Positions 15,552 through 54,201 of a DNA stretch of 64,000 nucleotides are shown here, piece by piece. The notes beneath the pieces are model-generated. The model was not told where the DNA came from. It searched no databases and was given only the letters and a program-made list of their open reading frames with translations. This DNA comes from an uncultured Pelagibacteraceae bacterium (GTDB lineage Bacteria > Pseudomonadota > Alphaproteobacteria > Pelagibacterales > Pelagibacteraceae). Position 1 is the first letter of the stretch; each line of letters starts with the position of its first letter. The position numbers and the translations under genes are program-made. The DNA is taken from positions 1 through 64,000 of the forward strand of contig CABYDT010000004.1 in the NCBI GenBank assembly GCA_902517865.1, written 5' to 3'.

Positions 15552-16215
15552 AATTTCTTTTTATAACTTTAAAATTATTAATAATATTGCTTAAATCTTT
15601 TGAATTAAAGTCCGGCCATAATTTCCTAACAAAAAAGATTTCTGTATAAGAAATCTGCCATAACAAAAAATCACTTAATCTTTTGTGACCCCCTGTTCTT
15701 ATTAATAAATCCGGGTTGGGAAATAATCTTGTATATAAATTATTATTTATATTGTTTTCACTGATACTCAATTTTTTTTTTTTAATTAATTTAATTGCTC
15801 TTAGTAATTCTTTTTTTGAACTGTAATTGAAAGCAATGTTAATATTTAATTTTGATCTCTTTTCTTGTCTGCTATTATATAAATTTATGAGTTTTTTTAT
15901 ATTTATTGGTAGTCTATTTTTCTCACCTATAAATTTTACATTAATTCTTTTCTTTTTTAATTCAAAATAATTTTTATTCAAATAATTGTCTAATAATGAA
16001 AAAATATATTTTATTTCATTCGTTGATCTTTTCCAATTATCGTACGAAAATGTATATAATGTTAAATACTTAACTTTTAAATTAATAATTTTTTTTATTA
16101 TGCTTTTTAAATTTTCTAGTCCTCTTGAGTGACCATAAGATCGGTTTTTATTTTTTAATTTCGCCCATCTACCATTTCCATCCATAATAATGGCCAGATG
16201 TCGAATTTTATTCAT
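15541..16215 (-). CDS. uppS: Undecaprenyl diphosphate synthase (cis-prenyltransferase)
   Basis: Condenses isopentenyl diphosphate onto farnesyl diphosphate to make the C55 carrier for peptidoglycan and polysaccharide synthesis. The active-site motif IMDGNGRWA starts at residue 10, with Asp12 as the Mg2+ ligand. The C-terminal signature DLLIRTGGHKRLSDFLLW plus the YTEIFF segment are intact. The 224-residue length is slightly short. Within the gene a run of twelve A encodes KKKK before LSIS, a possible slippage site. Start ATG overlaps the frr stop by 4 bases. Confidence 0.95.
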   Translation of the reverse strand: MNKIRHLAIIMDGNGRWAKLKNKNRSYGHSRGLENLKSIIKKIINLKVKYLTLYTFSYDNWKRSTNEIKYIFSLLDNYLNKNYFELKKKRINVKFIGEKNRLPINIKKLINLYNSRQEKRSKLNINIAFNYSSKKELLRAIKLIKKKKLSISENNINNNLYTRLFPNPDLLIRTGGHKRLSDFLLWQISYTEIFFVRKLWPDFNSKDLSNIINNFKVIKRNYGK

Positions 16216-16766
16216 ACCTTGAGGATATCTTTTTCTTTTTGTTTAATTTTATCTTCAACCAGTTTTATATAATTATCTGTAATCTTTTGTAACTCATTTG
16301 AGAATTTCATATTTTCGTCATCAGAAATGATTTTTTCCTTATTGTCTTTTTTAATTTTATCCATTCCTTCTCTTCTTATGTTTCTAATTGAAATTTTAAT
16401 TTTTTCAGATTGCTGTGAAACTATTTTTGTTAATTCTTTCCTTCTTTCTTCAGAAAGTTTTGGTACAGGTACTCTTATAATTTGACCATCCACCAAAGGG
16501 TTAAGGTTTAAATCCGACTCTCTAATACTTTTTTCAATAAACTTTACATTATTTTGATCCCAAACTTGCAAGCTTAATGTTTGAGGATCTGGTGTTGATA
16601 TAGATGATAATTGTTTTAATGGCATTGTCTGCCCATAAACTTCGACTTTGAGCAAGTCAAGCATGTTTGCATGCGCTCTTCCTGTTCTTATAGAAGAAAG
16701 ATCTCTTTCTAAACTTGCAAGAGAGTCCTTCATTTTTTTCTCAAATGATTTTAGTAATTCGCTCAT
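16212..16766 (-). CDS. frr: Ribosome recycling factor
   Basis: Releases ribosomes from mRNA after termination together with EF-G. The 184-residue protein aligns with the family along its length: SLERDLSSIRTGRAHANMLD near the start, then PDPQTLSLQVWDQ, NPLVDGQIIRVPVPKLSEERR and ISIRNIRREGMDKIKK. In nearly all relatives pyrH (UMP kinase) lies between tsf and frr; here only 5 bases separate them, so pyrH is absent from this place. Confidence 0.96.
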   Translation of the reverse strand: MSELLKSFEKKMKDSLASLERDLSSIRTGRAHANMLDLLKVEVYGQTMPLKQLSSISTPDPQTLSLQVWDQNNVKFIEKSIRESDLNLNPLVDGQIIRVPVPKLSEERRKELTKIVSQQSEKIKISIRNIRREGMDKIKKDNKEKIISDDENMKFSNELQKITDNYIKLVEDKIKQKEKDILKV

Positions 16767-16771
16767 AATGT

Positions 16772-17677
16772 TTATTTTACCAAATTTTTTACTTCTTCAT
16801 TAAAATTAGATTTATTTATTGAGATACCTTCACCTACTTTTAATCTTTTAAAATTTGTAATGTTAAAATTAATTTTATGAGATTTTGAAAAACTTTCTAT
16901 AGCCTTTTCAACAGTAATATCAGGGTCTACTACCCATTTTTGTTTTAATAATGAATTTTCAGTTAAAATCTTTGAAATTTTTCCGTCAATAATTTTTTTC
17001 AAAATGTCAGGTTTTTTTTTATCATCTTTTAATTGCTCCACAATTATCTTCTTCTCTTTTTCTATAAAATCTTTATCTATACCTGACTCATCAATTGACA
17101 TTGGATTTAATGCAGCAATATGCATACATATATTTCTGGCTAATTCATTAGCCACTTTTTGTTTATCAGTTTCATAAGATAATAAAACTCCAATCTTGCC
17201 TGTGCTTTCTGATGCTTTGTTATGTATATAACAAGCTATATGACCATCGCATGTAATCTTTTCAAATTTTCTGATTTTAATATTTTCTCCGATTTTTGAA
17301 ATAAGTTTTGTTATTGCTTGATCTATAGTATCATTTTCATTTATTTTTAATGTTCTTAAATCATCTGCTGTGTTTGCTTCTAAAGATTTTTTTGCAACTT
17401 CTTCACAGAAATTAATAAATTCTTTATTTTTAGCAACAAAATCTGTTTCAGAATTTATTTCAACTAAAGTACCAATTTTATCAGAAAAATATATTGCAAC
17501 CAATCCCTCTGCTGCGTCTCTAGAACTTTTTTTAGCTGCTTTCAAAATACCTTTTTTTCTTAAAAAATCTACAGCTTGATCAATATTATTATTATTTTCT
17601 GATAAAGCTGTTTTGCAATCCTGTATACCAGCTCCAGTTATTTCTCTAAGTTCTTTGACTTTTTCAAGAGTAGACAT
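16772..17677 (-). CDS. tsf: Elongation factor Ts
   Basis: Guanine-nucleotide exchange factor for EF-Tu. The N-terminal UBA-like domain has LREITGAGIQDCKTALSE. The core has the TDFVAKN motif, and the two dimerisation subdomains follow. The 301-residue length is typical for alphaproteobacteria. The C-terminal 30 residues (SFSKSHKINFNITNFKRLKV and onward) match the extended tail of the family. It follows rpsB after 8 bases, so it shares the rpsB promoter and leader. Confidence 0.96.
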   Translation of the reverse strand: MSTLEKVKELREITGAGIQDCKTALSENNNNIDQAVDFLRKKGILKAAKKSSRDAAEGLVAIYFSDKIGTLVEINSETDFVAKNKEFINFCEEVAKKSLEANTADDLRTLKINENDTIDQAITKLISKIGENIKIRKFEKITCDGHIACYIHNKASESTGKIGVLLSYETDKQKVANELARNICMHIAALNPMSIDESGIDKDFIEKEKKIIVEQLKDDKKKPDILKKIIDGKISKILTENSLLKQKWVVDPDITVEKAIESFSKSHKINFNITNFKRLKVGEGISINKSNFNEEVKNLVK

Positions 17678-17685
17678 AAAAAAAA

Positions 17686-18423
17686 TTATTTTTCTTTTAC
17701 TGAAACTTTAGAAGTTTTTGAGTTGTCAGTGGTAACAATATTTTTTTTTGCATCAATTATAGTTTTTTGTACTAAATCGCAATATAAATTTATAGACCGT
17801 CTAGCGTCGTCATTACCAGGAATGGGGAAAGTAATATTTTCTGGATTGGAGTTGCTATCTACTATAGCTACTATTGGTATATTAAGTTTTTTACCTTCTA
17901 AAACTGCTAATGATTCTATATTCGTATCTATTATAAAAATCATATCAGGTAATTTTCTCATTTTGCTTATTCCGCCTAAAGATCTCTCTAATTTGTCTCT
18001 CTCCACTGTCATTTTAATTAATTCTTTTTTAGTAAATCCCGTATCTTCTTTTTTTAAATCTTCATTTAATCTTTTTAATCTTTTTATTGAATTATTAATT
18101 GTATTCCAATTAGTAAGCATGCCCCCTAACCATCTATGATTAACATAATAACTTTCTGTTTCTTTTGCTAAGTTTGAAATAAGTTCAGAAGCCTGTTTTT
18201 TTGTAGAAACAAATAATAATTTTCCACCACTTGAAACACTTTTATGAATTTCAATTAATGCTTTATTTAATAGTTCTAAAGTTTGAGATAAATCTATTAT
18301 ATGAACAGAATTTTTTTCACCATAGATATACTGTTTCATTTTAGGGTTCCATCTAAATGTTTTATGTCCAAGATGAACGCCTGCCTCTAAAAGATCTTTT
18401 ATACTTACACTTGGTAAATTCAT
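17686..18423 (-). CDS. rpsB: 30S ribosomal protein S2
   Basis: Small-subunit protein that anchors S1 to the ribosome. The 245 residues carry the signatures LLEAGVHLGHKTFRWNPKMK at residues 11-30 and PDMIFIIDTN. The C-terminal tail is short and Lys/Ser-rich. It heads the rpsB-tsf-frr-uppS-cdsA-dxr-bamA-lpx run. A structured leader and a promoter lie in the 119-base gap upstream, consistent with feedback control by free S2 as known in E. coli. Confidence 0.97.
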   Translation of the reverse strand: MNLPSVSIKDLLEAGVHLGHKTFRWNPKMKQYIYGEKNSVHIIDLSQTLELLNKALIEIHKSVSSGGKLLFVSTKKQASELISNLAKETESYYVNHRWLGGMLTNWNTINNSIKRLKRLNEDLKKEDTGFTKKELIKMTVERDKLERSLGGISKMRKLPDMIFIIDTNIESLAVLEGKKLNIPIVAIVDSNSNPENITFPIPGNDDARRSINLYCDLVQKTIIDAKKNIVTTDNSKTSKVSVKEK

Positions 18424-18429
18424 AATTTA

Positions 18430-18493
18430 AACCGGTTACTCCACCGAGGAAACTACCACATAAGTGGACCGGGGGTTACAAACCACTTTCCTC
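18430..18493 (-). ncRNA. Candidate S2 (rpsB) autoregulatory leader RNA with a pseudoknot
   Basis: This is the one GC-rich non-coding patch of the window. In the rpsB transcript GAGGAAA (18493-18487) pairs with UUUCCUC (18452-18446). Inside lie alternative short helices, GGUU/AACC and CCAC-UUAU-GUGG. The loop sequence CCGGU (18472-18468) is complementary to ACCGG (18436-18432) beyond the stem, giving a pseudoknot that traps the GGUGGAG stretch just before the start codon. A competing hairpin CGGU-GGAGUA-ACCG would put the same GGAG in a loop. Pairings are read by eye; regulation by S2 is inferred from position. Confidence 0.7.
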
Positions 18494-18509
18494 TGCGAAT
18501 TTTTGAGAT

Positions 18510-18538
18510 TTTATAATTAAAAATAGCCTTTATTACAA
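18510..18538 (-). promoter_or_regulatory. Candidate sigma-70 promoter of the rpsB operon
   Basis: Reading the minus strand, TTGTAA and TATAAA are separated by 17 bases. Transcription would begin near 18503 and give an 80-base leader containing the whole structured element. It lies between the dnaE stop and rpsB, so the rpsB operon need not depend on dnaE read-through. Matches are 4/6 and 5/6 to consensus, and AT-rich DNA makes chance matches common. Confidence 0.5.
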
Positions 18539-18542
18539 GCAA

Positions 18543-21500
18543 TTAATTCTTAATATTAATATTAATACCCTTCGATTTTAGTGATTTTATGTCATCGTAA
18601 TTAACTTTTCTTGTTTTTAACAAACGAAAATTATAATAAAAGTTATTTTTTTTGTATTTTAAGTTTACGATAGTGGGTCCTACCTCATTTAGTAAATTTT
18701 TCTTTAAATTTTGAATATTTTCCTCACTGTCTATATATATATTTATTTCTTTAATATTTTTAGGTTGTAAATTTTCAATAAAAAAAACTCTTGTAACATT
18801 TATTCTTTCGGTTCCGTCTTTAGCTAAATCTTTTTTAACATTTATAATAAAGGAGTTACCAACCTTTAAATATACTCTATTGTCAACTAAATTTTCAGAA
18901 AATAGGAATAACTCAAACATTTGACTTAAATCCGTAAATTTTGCAATTGCATATGGACTGCCTCTTGCGGTTTTTTTTTCTTGCAGTTTCATTAGAGTTC
19001 CACTCAAAACGCATGTTTTAAGTTTTGAATTTAATTTGAAGTCTTTATATGTAATGACTTTTAAATCATCTAGCAAATTACTATGATTTTTAAGAGGATG
19101 CTCACTAACAAAAAAACCTATAGACTCGAATTCCTTTTCTATAATTTCAGACTCTTTCCATTGTTTTACATTATTTAAATTAATAACCTGAGAATTTTTT
19201 TCCTCTACAAAAAGGTTGAGATTTTCACTAGTAACCTCTGAAGTTTTAGATGCCTTTATTAAATCTGGCACACTCTCAAAAATTTTTCTTCTATTTTTTT
19301 CAAGACAATCAAAAGCGCCAGCTTTAATAAGTCCTTCTAATTGTAATTTATTTAAATTCTTACTTGAATTTCTTGATAGAAAGTCATTTATATTTTTATA
19401 TTTACCATTTGACTCTCTCTCTAAAACAATTTTTGAAATACTATCATAACCTACTGCTTTAATAGCAGATAAAGCGTAGTAGATTTCGTTTTTATTATTT
19501 GGTAAAAATTCTGAATAAGAGTTATTTATGCACGGCGGAAGTATCTTTAAGTTTAGTTTTTTTAATTCTTCATAGAATAAATTTAATTTATCGGTATTTG
19601 AGAGCTCAGTATTCATAGAGGCACAAAAAAAGTAGACTGGATAATGTTTTTTTAAAAATGCGGTTTGATAAGCTATTAACGCATAAGCAGCAGCATGGCT
19701 TTTATTAAATCCATACTGCGCAAATTTCTCAACTAATTGAAAAATAAATGTAGCTTGATCTTTAGATATTCCGTTGTTTATTGCTCCATCTATAAAATCT
19801 TTTTTTTGTCTTTCCATTTCTGCAGATTTTTTTTTACCCATTGCTTTTCTTAAAATGTCAGCTTTGCTTGCAGAAAAATTAGATAATGTTTGTGCTATTT
19901 GCATTACTTGTTCTTGATAAATAATTACTCCATATGTTTCCTTCAAAACAGTTTCTAATGTTGGATGTATGTAGTCTATTTTTTCCTTATCATGTTTTCT
20001 ATTTATATAAGTTGGAATATTCTGCATAGGTCCTGGTCTATACAATGCAACTAAAGCAATAATATCCTCAAATTTATTTGGTTTTAATTGCTTTAGTACT
20101 TCTCTCATACCAGAACTTTCAAGTTGAAAAATTCCCATAGTTTCTCCAGAACTTAATAGATCAAATGTTTCTTGATCATTTAAGGTAAGTTTTGAAATAT
20201 CAAAATTTGGATTATCTTTTTTTATGAAATTAACAGCTTTTTTTATCACAGTTAATGTCTTTAATCCTAGTAAATCAAATTTAACCAAACCAGATTCTTC
20301 AGATGACTTCATGTCAAATTGAGTAACGGGTATTGGAATATTAGAAGATAAATCTTTATATAAAGGAACAATTTTTTTTAAATCCTTGTCGCCAATAACT
20401 ATTCCTGCGGCATGAGTAGCAATATTTCTATATAATCCCTCTAATTTCAAAGAATAATTAATTAATTTTTTAATGTTTTGATCTTCTTTCTGTGCTTGTA
20501 AGATTCTTGGTTCTATTGCAATTGACTCAGCTAAGGATAGTGGCCTAGAAGGATCGAAAGGTATCATTTTACATAATTGATCCACCCTGCCATATGGAAG
20601 ACCAATTACTCGTCCAATATCTCTTAAAGCCATTCTCGCCTGCAATTTTCCAAACGTTATAATTTGTGCAACTTTATTTTGATATTTATCTTTCACATAA
20701 TTTATAACTGAGTCTCTTCCTTCCTGACAAAAATCAATATCAAAGTCAGGCATGCTAATTCTATCCGGGTTTAAAAAACGTTCAAAAATTAAACCAAATC
20801 TTATAGGATCTAAATCTGTAATATATAAACACCATGCAACTAATGATCCAGCGCCAGATCCTCTTCCTGGCCCAACTGGTATGGAGTTTTTTTTTGCCCA
20901 TTTTACATAATCTGAAACAATCAAAAAATATCCAGCAAATTTCATGTTAATTATCATTTCTAGTTCATATTTAAGGCGATTATTATATAATTTATCAAGA
21001 GAACTTTTAAATTTTTCATCAGTTATATTTTTAAATACAAAATTTTCTAGTCGATATTTTAATCCTTCGTATGCCTGTTCTTTAATAGCTAAATCAGGAT
21101 CTATATTATTATCTTTTAGATTTGGTAGTAAAGGGTGACTTTTTTTTGGAAAATATTTTATTTTTTTTATAAGATTAAAATTATTAGTTAAAGCATCAGG
21201 CAAATCTTTAAATAATAATTTCATTTCATCAGATGATTTGAAGTAATGTTCTGGTGAATATTTTAATCTTTTTTTTTCATTTACATAAGTTTTTTCACCT
21301 ACACATATATATGCATCATGGGCTTCATACATATCTTTCTCAATATAAAAAACTTCATGTGTTGCAATAATAGGTATTGATAATTTATCACTATAAAATA
21401 ACAATTTTTTTTCGATTAAATCATCGTTTACCTCTTTGTGTCTTTGAATTTCAATTAATAGATCCTCTTTTATTTTTTTTTTAATCTCATTAAGGAAAAA

Positions 21501-21953
21501 AACTAGATGTTCTTCTTTATTGTTAAGTATTAATTTATAACTCAAAGAGTTTGTTCCACCTGCTAATATAATTAAACCTTCACTACACTGTAATAAATCC
21601 TCAAATGAGCAATTTACTTCCTCATTTTCTTTCAATTCTAAATAAGATTTAGATGATAAATGAAGCATGTTTTCATATCCCTTCGCATCCTTGGCAATTA
21701 TTGATACTTTTCCAATTATATATTGATTATTATAATTTAGTTTAATATTAAGTTGATTGCCAATAATAGGTTGTGTTCCAACTTTTGTAAGCTCACTAGA
21801 AAATTCAAGTGCTCCAGATAAATTATTAGTATCAGATATCCCTGCAGCGTAAATTTTATTTTTTTTACAATGCTCAGCTAACTCAGATATTTTAACTGCA
21901 CCTTCACAAATTGAGTATTGGCTATGAGTTTTATAATGTATAAATTCTTTCAC
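18543..21953 (-). CDS. dnaE: DNA polymerase III alpha subunit
   Basis: Replicative polymerase. The 1136-residue protein begins with a PHP domain (HYKTHSQYSICEG at residues 6-18), continues into the C-family polymerase core with PVGPGRGSGAGSLVAW and the catalytic acidic motif PDFDIDFCQEGRD, then LVALYRPGPMQ, the helix-hairpin-helix region and a C-terminal OB fold (CVLSGTLMKLQEKKTARG). The start is GTG, chosen because it forms the GTGA overlap with the lolD stop and gives the usual N-terminus. It is the last gene of the ctaA-to-dnaE run; lolC-lolD-dnaE is a conserved alphaproteobacterial order. Confidence 0.96.
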   Translation of the reverse strand: MKEFIHYKTHSQYSICEGAVKISELAEHCKKNKIYAAGISDTNNLSGALEFSSELTKVGTQPIIGNQLNIKLNYNNQYIIGKVSIIAKDAKGYENMLHLSSKSYLELKENEEVNCSFEDLLQCSEGLIILAGGTNSLSYKLILNNKEEHLVFFLNEIKKKIKEDLLIEIQRHKEVNDDLIEKKLLFYSDKLSIPIIATHEVFYIEKDMYEAHDAYICVGEKTYVNEKKRLKYSPEHYFKSSDEMKLLFKDLPDALTNNFNLIKKIKYFPKKSHPLLPNLKDNNIDPDLAIKEQAYEGLKYRLENFVFKNITDEKFKSSLDKLYNNRLKYELEMIINMKFAGYFLIVSDYVKWAKKNSIPVGPGRGSGAGSLVAWCLYITDLDPIRFGLIFERFLNPDRISMPDFDIDFCQEGRDSVINYVKDKYQNKVAQIITFGKLQARMALRDIGRVIGLPYGRVDQLCKMIPFDPSRPLSLAESIAIEPRILQAQKEDQNIKKLINYSLKLEGLYRNIATHAAGIVIGDKDLKKIVPLYKDLSSNIPIPVTQFDMKSSEESGLVKFDLLGLKTLTVIKKAVNFIKKDNPNFDISKLTLNDQETFDLLSSGETMGIFQLESSGMREVLKQLKPNKFEDIIALVALYRPGPMQNIPTYINRKHDKEKIDYIHPTLETVLKETYGVIIYQEQVMQIAQTLSNFSASKADILRKAMGKKKSAEMERQKKDFIDGAINNGISKDQATFIFQLVEKFAQYGFNKSHAAAYALIAYQTAFLKKHYPVYFFCASMNTELSNTDKLNLFYEELKKLNLKILPPCINNSYSEFLPNNKNEIYYALSAIKAVGYDSISKIVLERESNGKYKNINDFLSRNSSKNLNKLQLEGLIKAGAFDCLEKNRRKIFESVPDLIKASKTSEVTSENLNLFVEEKNSQVINLNNVKQWKESEIIEKEFESIGFFVSEHPLKNHSNLLDDLKVITYKDFKLNSKLKTCVLSGTLMKLQEKKTARGSPYAIAKFTDLSQMFELFLFSENLVDNRVYLKVGNSFIINVKKDLAKDGTERINVTRVFFIENLQPKNIKEINIYIDSEENIQNLKKNLLNEVGPTIVNLKYKKNNFYYNFRLLKTRKVNYDDIKSLKSKGININIKN

Positions 21954-41621: not shown

Positions 41622-42049
41622 TTACTTTTAAAAAAAATCAAAGGTTCTTTTCCTTTTAATATTTTAAAACGTTTAACTTTGTGTAATACTAGATAGTGAT
41701 CACCTGCATTATATGTTTTGTATAATTTACACTCTAAATAACCCAAGGAATCTTTGACAATATTTTCTAGATATAATTTATTGAAAGTATTATTTGTACT
41801 CGCTAATTTTTTAGAAATTTTTTTTTGCGTTTTTGATAAGAATATTATTTTATAAATAACGCTTTTCTTTAAAAAGTTTTTTTTAGATTTAGAAGTTTTA
41901 TCAAGACACCACATAACAATTTTAGGTTTTAAAGAAACTGGGGCAAATGAATTTACTGTTATACCTTCATATTTCGAATCTTTTTTATAAATAATTGAGG
42001 TTATTCCTGTAGTAAAAAGTGAGAGACAATTTCTAAATTTATTTTTCAA
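41612..42049 (-). CDS. Flavin reductase-like (HpaC/FMN-binding split barrel) protein
   Basis: About 145 residues with the start of the flavin-reductase domain: FRNCLSLFTTGITSI (family: FRxALGxFATGVTVV), then EGITVNSFAPVSLKPKIVMWCLDKTSKS and a late GDHYLVLHKVKRF (family: GDHxIFxGEV). It would bind FMN and reduce it with NAD(P)H or serve as a partner of an oxygenase; the substrate is unknown. The chosen TTG start overlaps the DUF2061 gene by 11 bases. An ATG 12 codons further upstream would overlap it by 47. The C-terminus is divergent and Lys-rich. Confidence 0.75.
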   Translation of the reverse strand: MKNKFRNCLSLFTTGITSIIYKKDSKYEGITVNSFAPVSLKPKIVMWCLDKTSKSKKNFLKKSVIYKIIFLSKTQKKISKKLASTNNTFNKLYLENIVKDSLGYLECKLYKTYNAGDHYLVLHKVKRFKILKGKEPLIFFKSNYF

Positions 42050-42251
42050 ACTGACCCCACTTAACTTGATTCCATGCTCTTTCATGTAAATAATACAAAA
42101 TAATTTTAGTGATAACTTCAATTGTAGCTATCCATCCACCGACGGATATACTGCCGCTTACAAACCAAGCTATTAAGAATGTATCTAATGAAGCTAATAT
42201 TCTCCAAGTAATTGTTTTTATCAAGCTTCTTATTCTAATATCTCTAGTCAT
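42039..42251 (-). CDS. Small membrane protein, DUF2061 family
   Basis: A 70-residue protein of unknown function matching the DUF2061 pattern: RSLIKTITWRILASLDTF, then a hydrophobic span, a second one with GWIATIEVITKIILYYLHERAW, and the ending WNQVKWGQFEK. The family is widespread and short, with two spans. It overlaps parC by 8 bases upstream and the flavin reductase-like gene downstream, so the three are probably co-transcribed. I cannot assign a role. Confidence 0.85.
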   Translation of the reverse strand: MTRDIRIRSLIKTITWRILASLDTFLIAWFVSGSISVGGWIATIEVITKIILYYLHERAWNQVKWGQFEK

Positions 42252-53958: not shown

Positions 53959-54201
53959 TTGAAATTTGAAGTTTTTATCACTTTAAAAAAAGAGGTTTTG
54001 GACCCTCAGGGTAAAGCAATCGAAAATGCTTTGGGGTCCCTCGGCATTCAAGGAATTGAAACAGTAAGACAAGGTAAATATTTTTCTATTGTAATTGATG
54101 AAAAAGAAAAAAATAAAGCAGAAAAAATAGTAAAAACTGCATGCCAAAAATTATTAGCTAATGAAACTATAGAGGAATATAGTTTTAAAATAGTTAAATG
54201 A
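53959..54201 (+). CDS. purS: Phosphoribosylformylglycinamidine synthase subunit PurS
   Basis: Small structural subunit that links PurQ and PurL in the FGAM synthase complex. The 80-residue protein has FITLKKEVLDPQGKAIENAL and LGIQGIETVRQGKYFSIVI, covering the whole family. The start is TTG, one base after the purC stop; no ATG in frame would retain the first beta strand. It overlaps purQ by 4 bases. Presence of PurS goes with the separate PurQ and short PurL downstream. Confidence 0.95.
   Translation: MKFEVFITLKKEVLDPQGKAIENALGSLGIQGIETVRQGKYFSIVIDEKEKNKAEKIVKTACQKLLANETIEEYSFKIVK

Follow-up and report, generated by a model that had tools for sequence, protein, structure and literature searches.

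A compact S2 leader RNA upstream of rpsB in an uncultured Pelagibacteraceae bacterium, with its pseudoknot strand close to the start codon

The window analysed here, a stretch of 64,000 nt at the start of contig CABYDT010000004.1 from an uncultured Pelagibacteraceae bacterium, has a GC content of 27.6%, and directly upstream of rpsB, the gene for ribosomal protein S2, it carries a non-coding patch much richer in G and C. Is this patch a regulatory RNA, has it been described before, and how could it act on the synthesis of S2?

The rpsB leader and its surroundings

When open reading frames starting with ATG, GTG or TTG are all counted, the non-coding 50-mer with the highest GC content in the window (0.54) starts at position 18432. 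The runner-up, at 42124 (0.48), lies inside a 70-aa open reading frame, and the rpsB leader is therefore unique in the window as a GC-rich patch outside coding sequence, as the first-pass annotation had it. A count restricted to ATG starts also listed GC-rich sites at 54000 and 1755; both belong to frames starting with GTG or TTG. Two short GC-rich frames (53959–54201 and 42039–42251) would pass for non-coding GC patches under overly strict gene calling; one presumably encodes a PurS-like protein, with a TTG start, and the other a DUF2061-like protein. No tRNAs were found in the window.

The rpsB gene encodes 245 amino acids (PF00318, E = 2.8e-87, Pfam). It is followed on the minus strand by what we take, from their sequences, to be tsf, frr, a uppS-like gene and a cdsA-like gene, and preceded on the same strand by what is presumably dnaE (18543–21953). 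The frr gene adjoins tsf directly, and pyrH, which in other bacteria often lies between the two, is absent from there (window positions 16212–17677).

The leader comprises 80 nt, from 18503 to 18424 on the minus strand. In the mRNA, it reads CGC-A-GAGGAAA ... GGUUUGUAACC ... CCGGU-CCACUUAUGUGG ... UUUCCUC-G-GUG-GAGUA-ACCGG-UUUAAAUU-AUG. The features, in the direction of transcription, are as follows.

18510–18538, minus strand: candidate promoter read from the sequence, TTGTAA (18533–18538), 17 nt, TATAAA (18510–18515)
18495–18497, minus strand: P1a 5′ strand CGC, extending P1 past an A/G mismatch
18487–18493, minus strand: P1 5′ strand GAGGAAA (sequence, fold, covariation in the family)
18474–18484, minus strand: P2 hairpin GGUU-UGU-AACC, in which 18481–18484 pairs with 18474–18477; it covaries
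18468–18472, minus strand: pseudoknot 5′ strand CCGGU, at the P2/P3 junction (sequence and comparison)
18456–18467, minus strand: P3 hairpin CCAC-UUAU-GUGG of the minimum-energy fold; poorly aligned, with weak comparative support
18446–18452, minus strand: P1 3′ strand UUUCCUC (sequence, fold, covariation in the family)
18442–18444, minus strand: P1a 3′ strand GUG, within GGUGGAG (18439–18445; fold and comparison)
18432–18436, minus strand: pseudoknot 3′ strand ACCGG, ending 8 nt before the AUG
18424–18431, minus strand: spacer UUUAAAUU, 8 nt, without a Shine-Dalgarno sequence
17686–18423, minus strand: rpsB (open reading frame and PF00318), with its AUG at 18421–18423

The 7-bp stem GAGGAAA/UUUCCUC and the elements CCGGU, ACCGG and GGUGGAG, on which the first-pass annotation had built its proposal, are all present where it placed them. 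So are the two promoter hexamers, but in 98 relatives a hexamer resembling −10 stood before the motif no more often than in shuffled sequences, and a stricter promoter scan listed no promoter on the minus strand.

The folding energy of the leader is ordinary (z = −0.62; 49 of 200 shuffled sequences fold equally well), and in a calculation that ignores pseudoknots the pairs of P1 reach probabilities of only 0.56–0.66. The plus-strand fold was disregarded, rpsB being on the minus strand. A mini-frame at P3, AUG-UGG-UAG, is absent from the leaders of other genera that were inspected, and we attribute it to chance.

A described motif that covaries in the family and across the phylum

Whether such an RNA had already been described was left unverified in the first-pass annotation; it had, in SAR11 itself, and the leader is thus not new. 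Meyer et al. (2009) derived their “rpsB motif” from the dnaE–rpsB spacer of “Candidatus Pelagibacter ubique”, and the structure that they describe is the same: P1 with two short helices, P2 and P3, and a pseudoknot in which the junction between P2 and P3 pairs with the strand following P1 (PMC2704228). The window leader shares with that motif the gene, the position before it in the dnaE–rpsB spacer, P1, the short P2 and P3, the five-pair pseudoknot and the link with autoregulation by S2 (PMC2704228). It lies in the 5′ leader of rpsB, its long P1 and its P2 covary, P3 is present in the window fold with weak comparative support, and the pseudoknot joins the P2/P3 junction to the post-P1 strand. 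In the window, P2 and P3 can each form four pairs, as against the three and two stated for “Ca. P. ubique” (PMC2704228). Compared with its relatives, the window copy has an A/G mismatch in place of the outermost P1 pair and one 5′ base fewer. We have hardly any doubt that it is an ortholog of the proteobacterial rpsB motif (S2 leader RNA), in the compact form of its lineage, presumably SAR11 in view of the small genome, the 27.6% GC and the dnaE–rpsB gene order.

At Rfam’s own cut-offs, no match was found in the window. At a lax threshold, RF01815 (“rpsB”) aligned over all its 132 positions, including CCGGU and UAACCGGU, with 20.1 bits and an E value of 0.053 in a search of 301 bases; this is below the gathering cut-off of 40 bits, and we therefore file the leader under the published motif by its structure and not as a match to RF01815. 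It is nonetheless the sole RF01815 match at E ≤ 10 in the genome (0.96 Mb). The shortfall concerns not only 18415–18497 of the window: 97 genomes of the order were searched and none reached the cut-off, the best score being 38.1 bits, even though it was from this lineage that the motif was described. The model includes a downstream AGgAgA that is mostly missing in the window’s lineage, and Rfam files it as an sRNA rather than as a cis-regulatory leader.

In the Escherichia coli rpsB–tsf leader, GGGGU/ACCCC stands in the places that correspond to CCGGU/ACCGG in the window. This leader, which overlaps the annotated tff RNA (“putative small RNA T44”), differs from that in the window in being longer, in its pseudoknot letters, and in having more sequence, with a GAGG, between the pseudoknot and the start.

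Within the family, 93 matches to the S2 protein were found, and 70 leaders (30 loci and 40 regions) were taken by protein, ignoring the motif; 28 further leaders were picked with RF01815, for a total of 98. Of the 93 protein matches, 15 entered via RF01815 and 8 were left out. The motif was present in all 70 leaders picked by protein, as well as in the 28 picked with RF01815. Upstream of the start codon, all 98 leaders contain CCGGU; 97 of them also have ACCGG, and the remaining one has ACCGA.

In 96 distinct family leaders, standard pairs occupied 630 of 669 cells over the seven P1 positions, against a mean of 546 and a maximum of 565 in 1000 shuffles; the count was anchored on flanking letters and not on pairing, and is slightly low owing to one misplaced row (G019). 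Two-sided changes occurred at six of the seven positions, giving 25 distinct helices, and in P2 there were 87 both-side cells, with changes from GC to AU. In P1a, both C-G pairs were intact in 96 of 96 leaders and the middle pair in 81. Counting in projected columns gave only 20.3% paired for P1, which is an alignment fault: the window’s genus lacks one 5′ base and the columns are off by one. The projected-column count of complete pseudoknots (86 of 96) is similarly too low when set against the direct reading of CCGGU and ACCGG.

An alignment made from sequence only, of 28 leaders outside the window’s genus, gave the same picture. In it, 97.5% of the cells of P1, P2 and the pseudoknot together were paired, with 28 two-sided changes against a shuffle mean of 7.0 (none of 500 shuffles was as high), and pairing fell to 28–55% when the partners were slid by one to three columns. 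RNAalifold recovered P1 unprompted. A covariance model of these 28 leaders found the window leader with 50.9 bits (E = 1.7e-12 in 490,642 bases). It also found the leaders of two congeners and each of the five that were supplied from the sister family (E values from 1.8e-11 to 4.9e-4); among the same 490,642 bases there was one other match, at E = 0.36. In the window’s own genome, the leader was the only match at E ≤ 1. The E. coli leader was not reached by this model. It is this comparison, and not the folding energy alone, that sets the leader beyond chance.

An S2 match was obtained in 21 of the 26 sister-family genomes, and each of these 21 leaders contains CCGGU as well as ACCGG. Within the order the pseudoknot is nearly invariant and so yields no covariation. 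We assembled 40 leaders by protein from the phylum outside the class (one for each of 33 families, plus seven extra), 33 of which could be parsed by context. In these 33, the pseudoknot had a mean of 4.79 pairs, against 3.67 (maximum 4.33) when the 3′ strands were exchanged between leaders 2000 times, and 22 had at least five pairs, against 7.8 expected and a maximum of 17. Examples are GGGGU/ACCCC (the letters of E. coli K-12), UUAAGGU/ACCUUAA, AAAGGGU/ACCCUUU and AUUGU/ACAAU; four of the 33 pair at three positions or fewer, and seven of the 40 were unparsable. Changed letters also occur in other alphaproteobacteria: CUGGU/ACCAG (L160) and CCAGU/ACUGG (L172). In three leaders outside the class (L183, L207 and L218), no clear rpsB motif could be made out by eye; they are possible losses of the motif or very different leaders.

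A lack of compensatory changes in the two helices was among the findings that the first-pass annotation had named as evidence against its proposal; such changes exist, within the family for P1 and across the phylum for CCGGU/ACCGG. The ordinary folding energy would sit well with a 5′ structure that merely protects the mRNA, or with a chance fold, neither being a regulator. Given covariation and the phylum-wide conservation of a knotted fold before one gene, we regard this as most improbable. As far as sequence comparison goes, P1, P2, the five-pair pseudoknot and its position near the AUG are established. A guess made from one sequence has thus been settled as a real, known regulatory RNA, a pseudoknotted leader of the S2-regulatory type in the small form that had been proposed, with strong covariation for both helices. 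The worth of this is modest: the covariation evidence, the gap at the Rfam cut-off by which all 97 genomes of the order are missed, and a lineage-specific arrangement that is open to testing.

The pseudoknot strand and the place of the Shine-Dalgarno sequence

In the 98 family leaders, 3–12 nt (median 8) separate the end of ACCGG from the AUG, and a Shine-Dalgarno-like match of at least 4 nt occurs in this spacer in only six, all of one genus. In other alphaproteobacteria, the spacer measures 12–22 nt (median 15) and holds such a match in 22 of 26 leaders. The differences give a Mann–Whitney p of 7e-16 for the spacer and a Fisher p of 3e-15 for the Shine-Dalgarno match, relatedness being ignored, in a comparison that mixes leaders from two kinds of search and uses an assumed 16S tail. 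The alphaproteobacterial set consisted of 29 loci chosen by protein, of which 26 were parsed; L155, L179 and L180 were dropped, their gene starts not being found. In L162, L163, L170, L175, L176 and L178, the 5-mer is misplaced or different, and their spacer lengths may be a few bases off. A further set, picked with RF01815 and having the Shine-Dalgarno sequence in 30 of 30, was set aside as biased, since these loci are the best matches to a model that itself contains the Shine-Dalgarno site; moreover, rows L115, L117 and L129 were misparsed.

All 21 sister-family leaders have a GGAG whose first letters belong to the pseudoknot strand (ACC-GGAG). Judged from the aligned leaders, then, the pseudoknot strand in this order stands where a Shine-Dalgarno sequence would be, or overlaps that place. 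We found no discussion of this in the literature searched, and the rpsB section of Meyer et al. (2009) takes up neither the Shine-Dalgarno sequence nor the distance to the AUG (PMC2704228). The alignment file of that paper probably holds such sequences, and the position of the strand may be implicit there.

A generally weak use of Shine-Dalgarno sequences could explain why the leader has none. By a crude count of 64 window genes, the fraction preceded by a match of at least four bases is 0.19, as compared with 0.11 in shuffled sequence, and usage is similarly weak in two relatives, one sister-family genome and one other alphaproteobacterium; the start sites being crude, no conclusion is drawn from these figures.

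How the leader could act on S2 synthesis

According to the first-pass annotation, a competing hairpin, UCGGU-GGAGUA-ACCGG, would take the ACCGG strand from the pseudoknot and so expose or hide GGUGGAG as a ribosome-binding site. The hairpin can indeed form in the window, with pair probabilities of 0.09–0.40, and its inner four pairs are possible in 73 of 96 family leaders, which is what independent conservation of GUGG and of AACC, on grounds unrelated to the hairpin, would give. It shows no two-sided changes, however; relatives with GAGG or GCGG break it, and it is mostly lost in the sister family, where GGAUGAAUA or GGAUGAACA usually precedes ACCGG. GGUGGAG itself ends 15 nt before the AUG, and its GUG pairs with CGC as the 3′ side of the P1 extension. 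In most of the sister family its counterpart is GGAUGAA-like, and in most other alphaproteobacteria a separate Shine-Dalgarno sequence stands further down. With this stretch varying and its GUG engaged in P1a, GGUGGAG is not conserved as a ribosome-binding site, and we consider a switch of this kind very unlikely.

The same small hairpin, followed by UUUAAAUUAU, was listed as terminator-like (one found in 261 bases scanned, against 0.1 expected), which would suit transcription attenuation with the pseudoknot as antiterminator. The tail, however, is only UUUAAAUU, in relatives from other genera the tail is mostly rich in A (GAAUAAAU, AAAAAAAU), and the hairpin is not conserved; attenuation thus appears extremely unlikely.

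The ACCGG strand could still gate initiation, as it is the strand nearest to the start codon. S2 represses its own mRNA in E. coli, as the first-pass annotation had noted; according to a review, it acts on rpsB–tsf via the leader and with the aid of S1 (PMC10931766). In the window’s lineage, S2 that is free, being in excess over 16S rRNA, would bind the pseudoknotted fold and stabilise it; the pseudoknot would then form a stable helix where the 30S subunit would load, and blocked loading would lower the translation of rpsB and of the downstream tsf. Once ribosomes have taken up the S2, the pseudoknot would open and initiation proceed. We favour this reading, with binding, repression and direct block taken together, at a probability of roughly 55%.

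The alternative to be taken most seriously accepts the same S2 leader but has repression work otherwise than via the start region, so that the closeness of the pseudoknot to the AUG would be a by-product of genome shrinkage. The E. coli ribosome-binding site is reported to lie outside the S2 operator, and S1 takes part (PMC10931766); occlusion may therefore not be the ancestral mode. The alphaproteobacteria outside the order, with their pseudoknot at the longer distance and mostly a separate Shine-Dalgarno sequence, are in line with this. Against it, the family’s pseudoknot strand, at 3–12 nt from the AUG, lies within the footprint of an initiating ribosome, and in the sister family it overlaps GGAG, so that an effect on loading seems hard to avoid. 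We hold such a repression away from the start region to be possible but rather doubtful.

Beyond direct block, we put forward tentatively that the lineage has rebuilt the S2 leader: about 7 nt and the separate Shine-Dalgarno sequence would have been lost, ACCGG would have come to stand in the Shine-Dalgarno position, and S2 would directly lock and unlock the loading of ribosomes. If so, the rebuilt leader would be one of the simplest S2 operators. The details of S2 repression in E. coli are called unclear in the review (PMC10931766), and the short form of this lineage would make a simple test system, since its pseudoknot can hardly form without touching the landing site of the ribosome.

Natural compensatory variants useful for such work are at hand in other alphaproteobacteria: L160 and L172, with the changed letters given above, and L176 and L178, which by eye have CCGA/UCGG.
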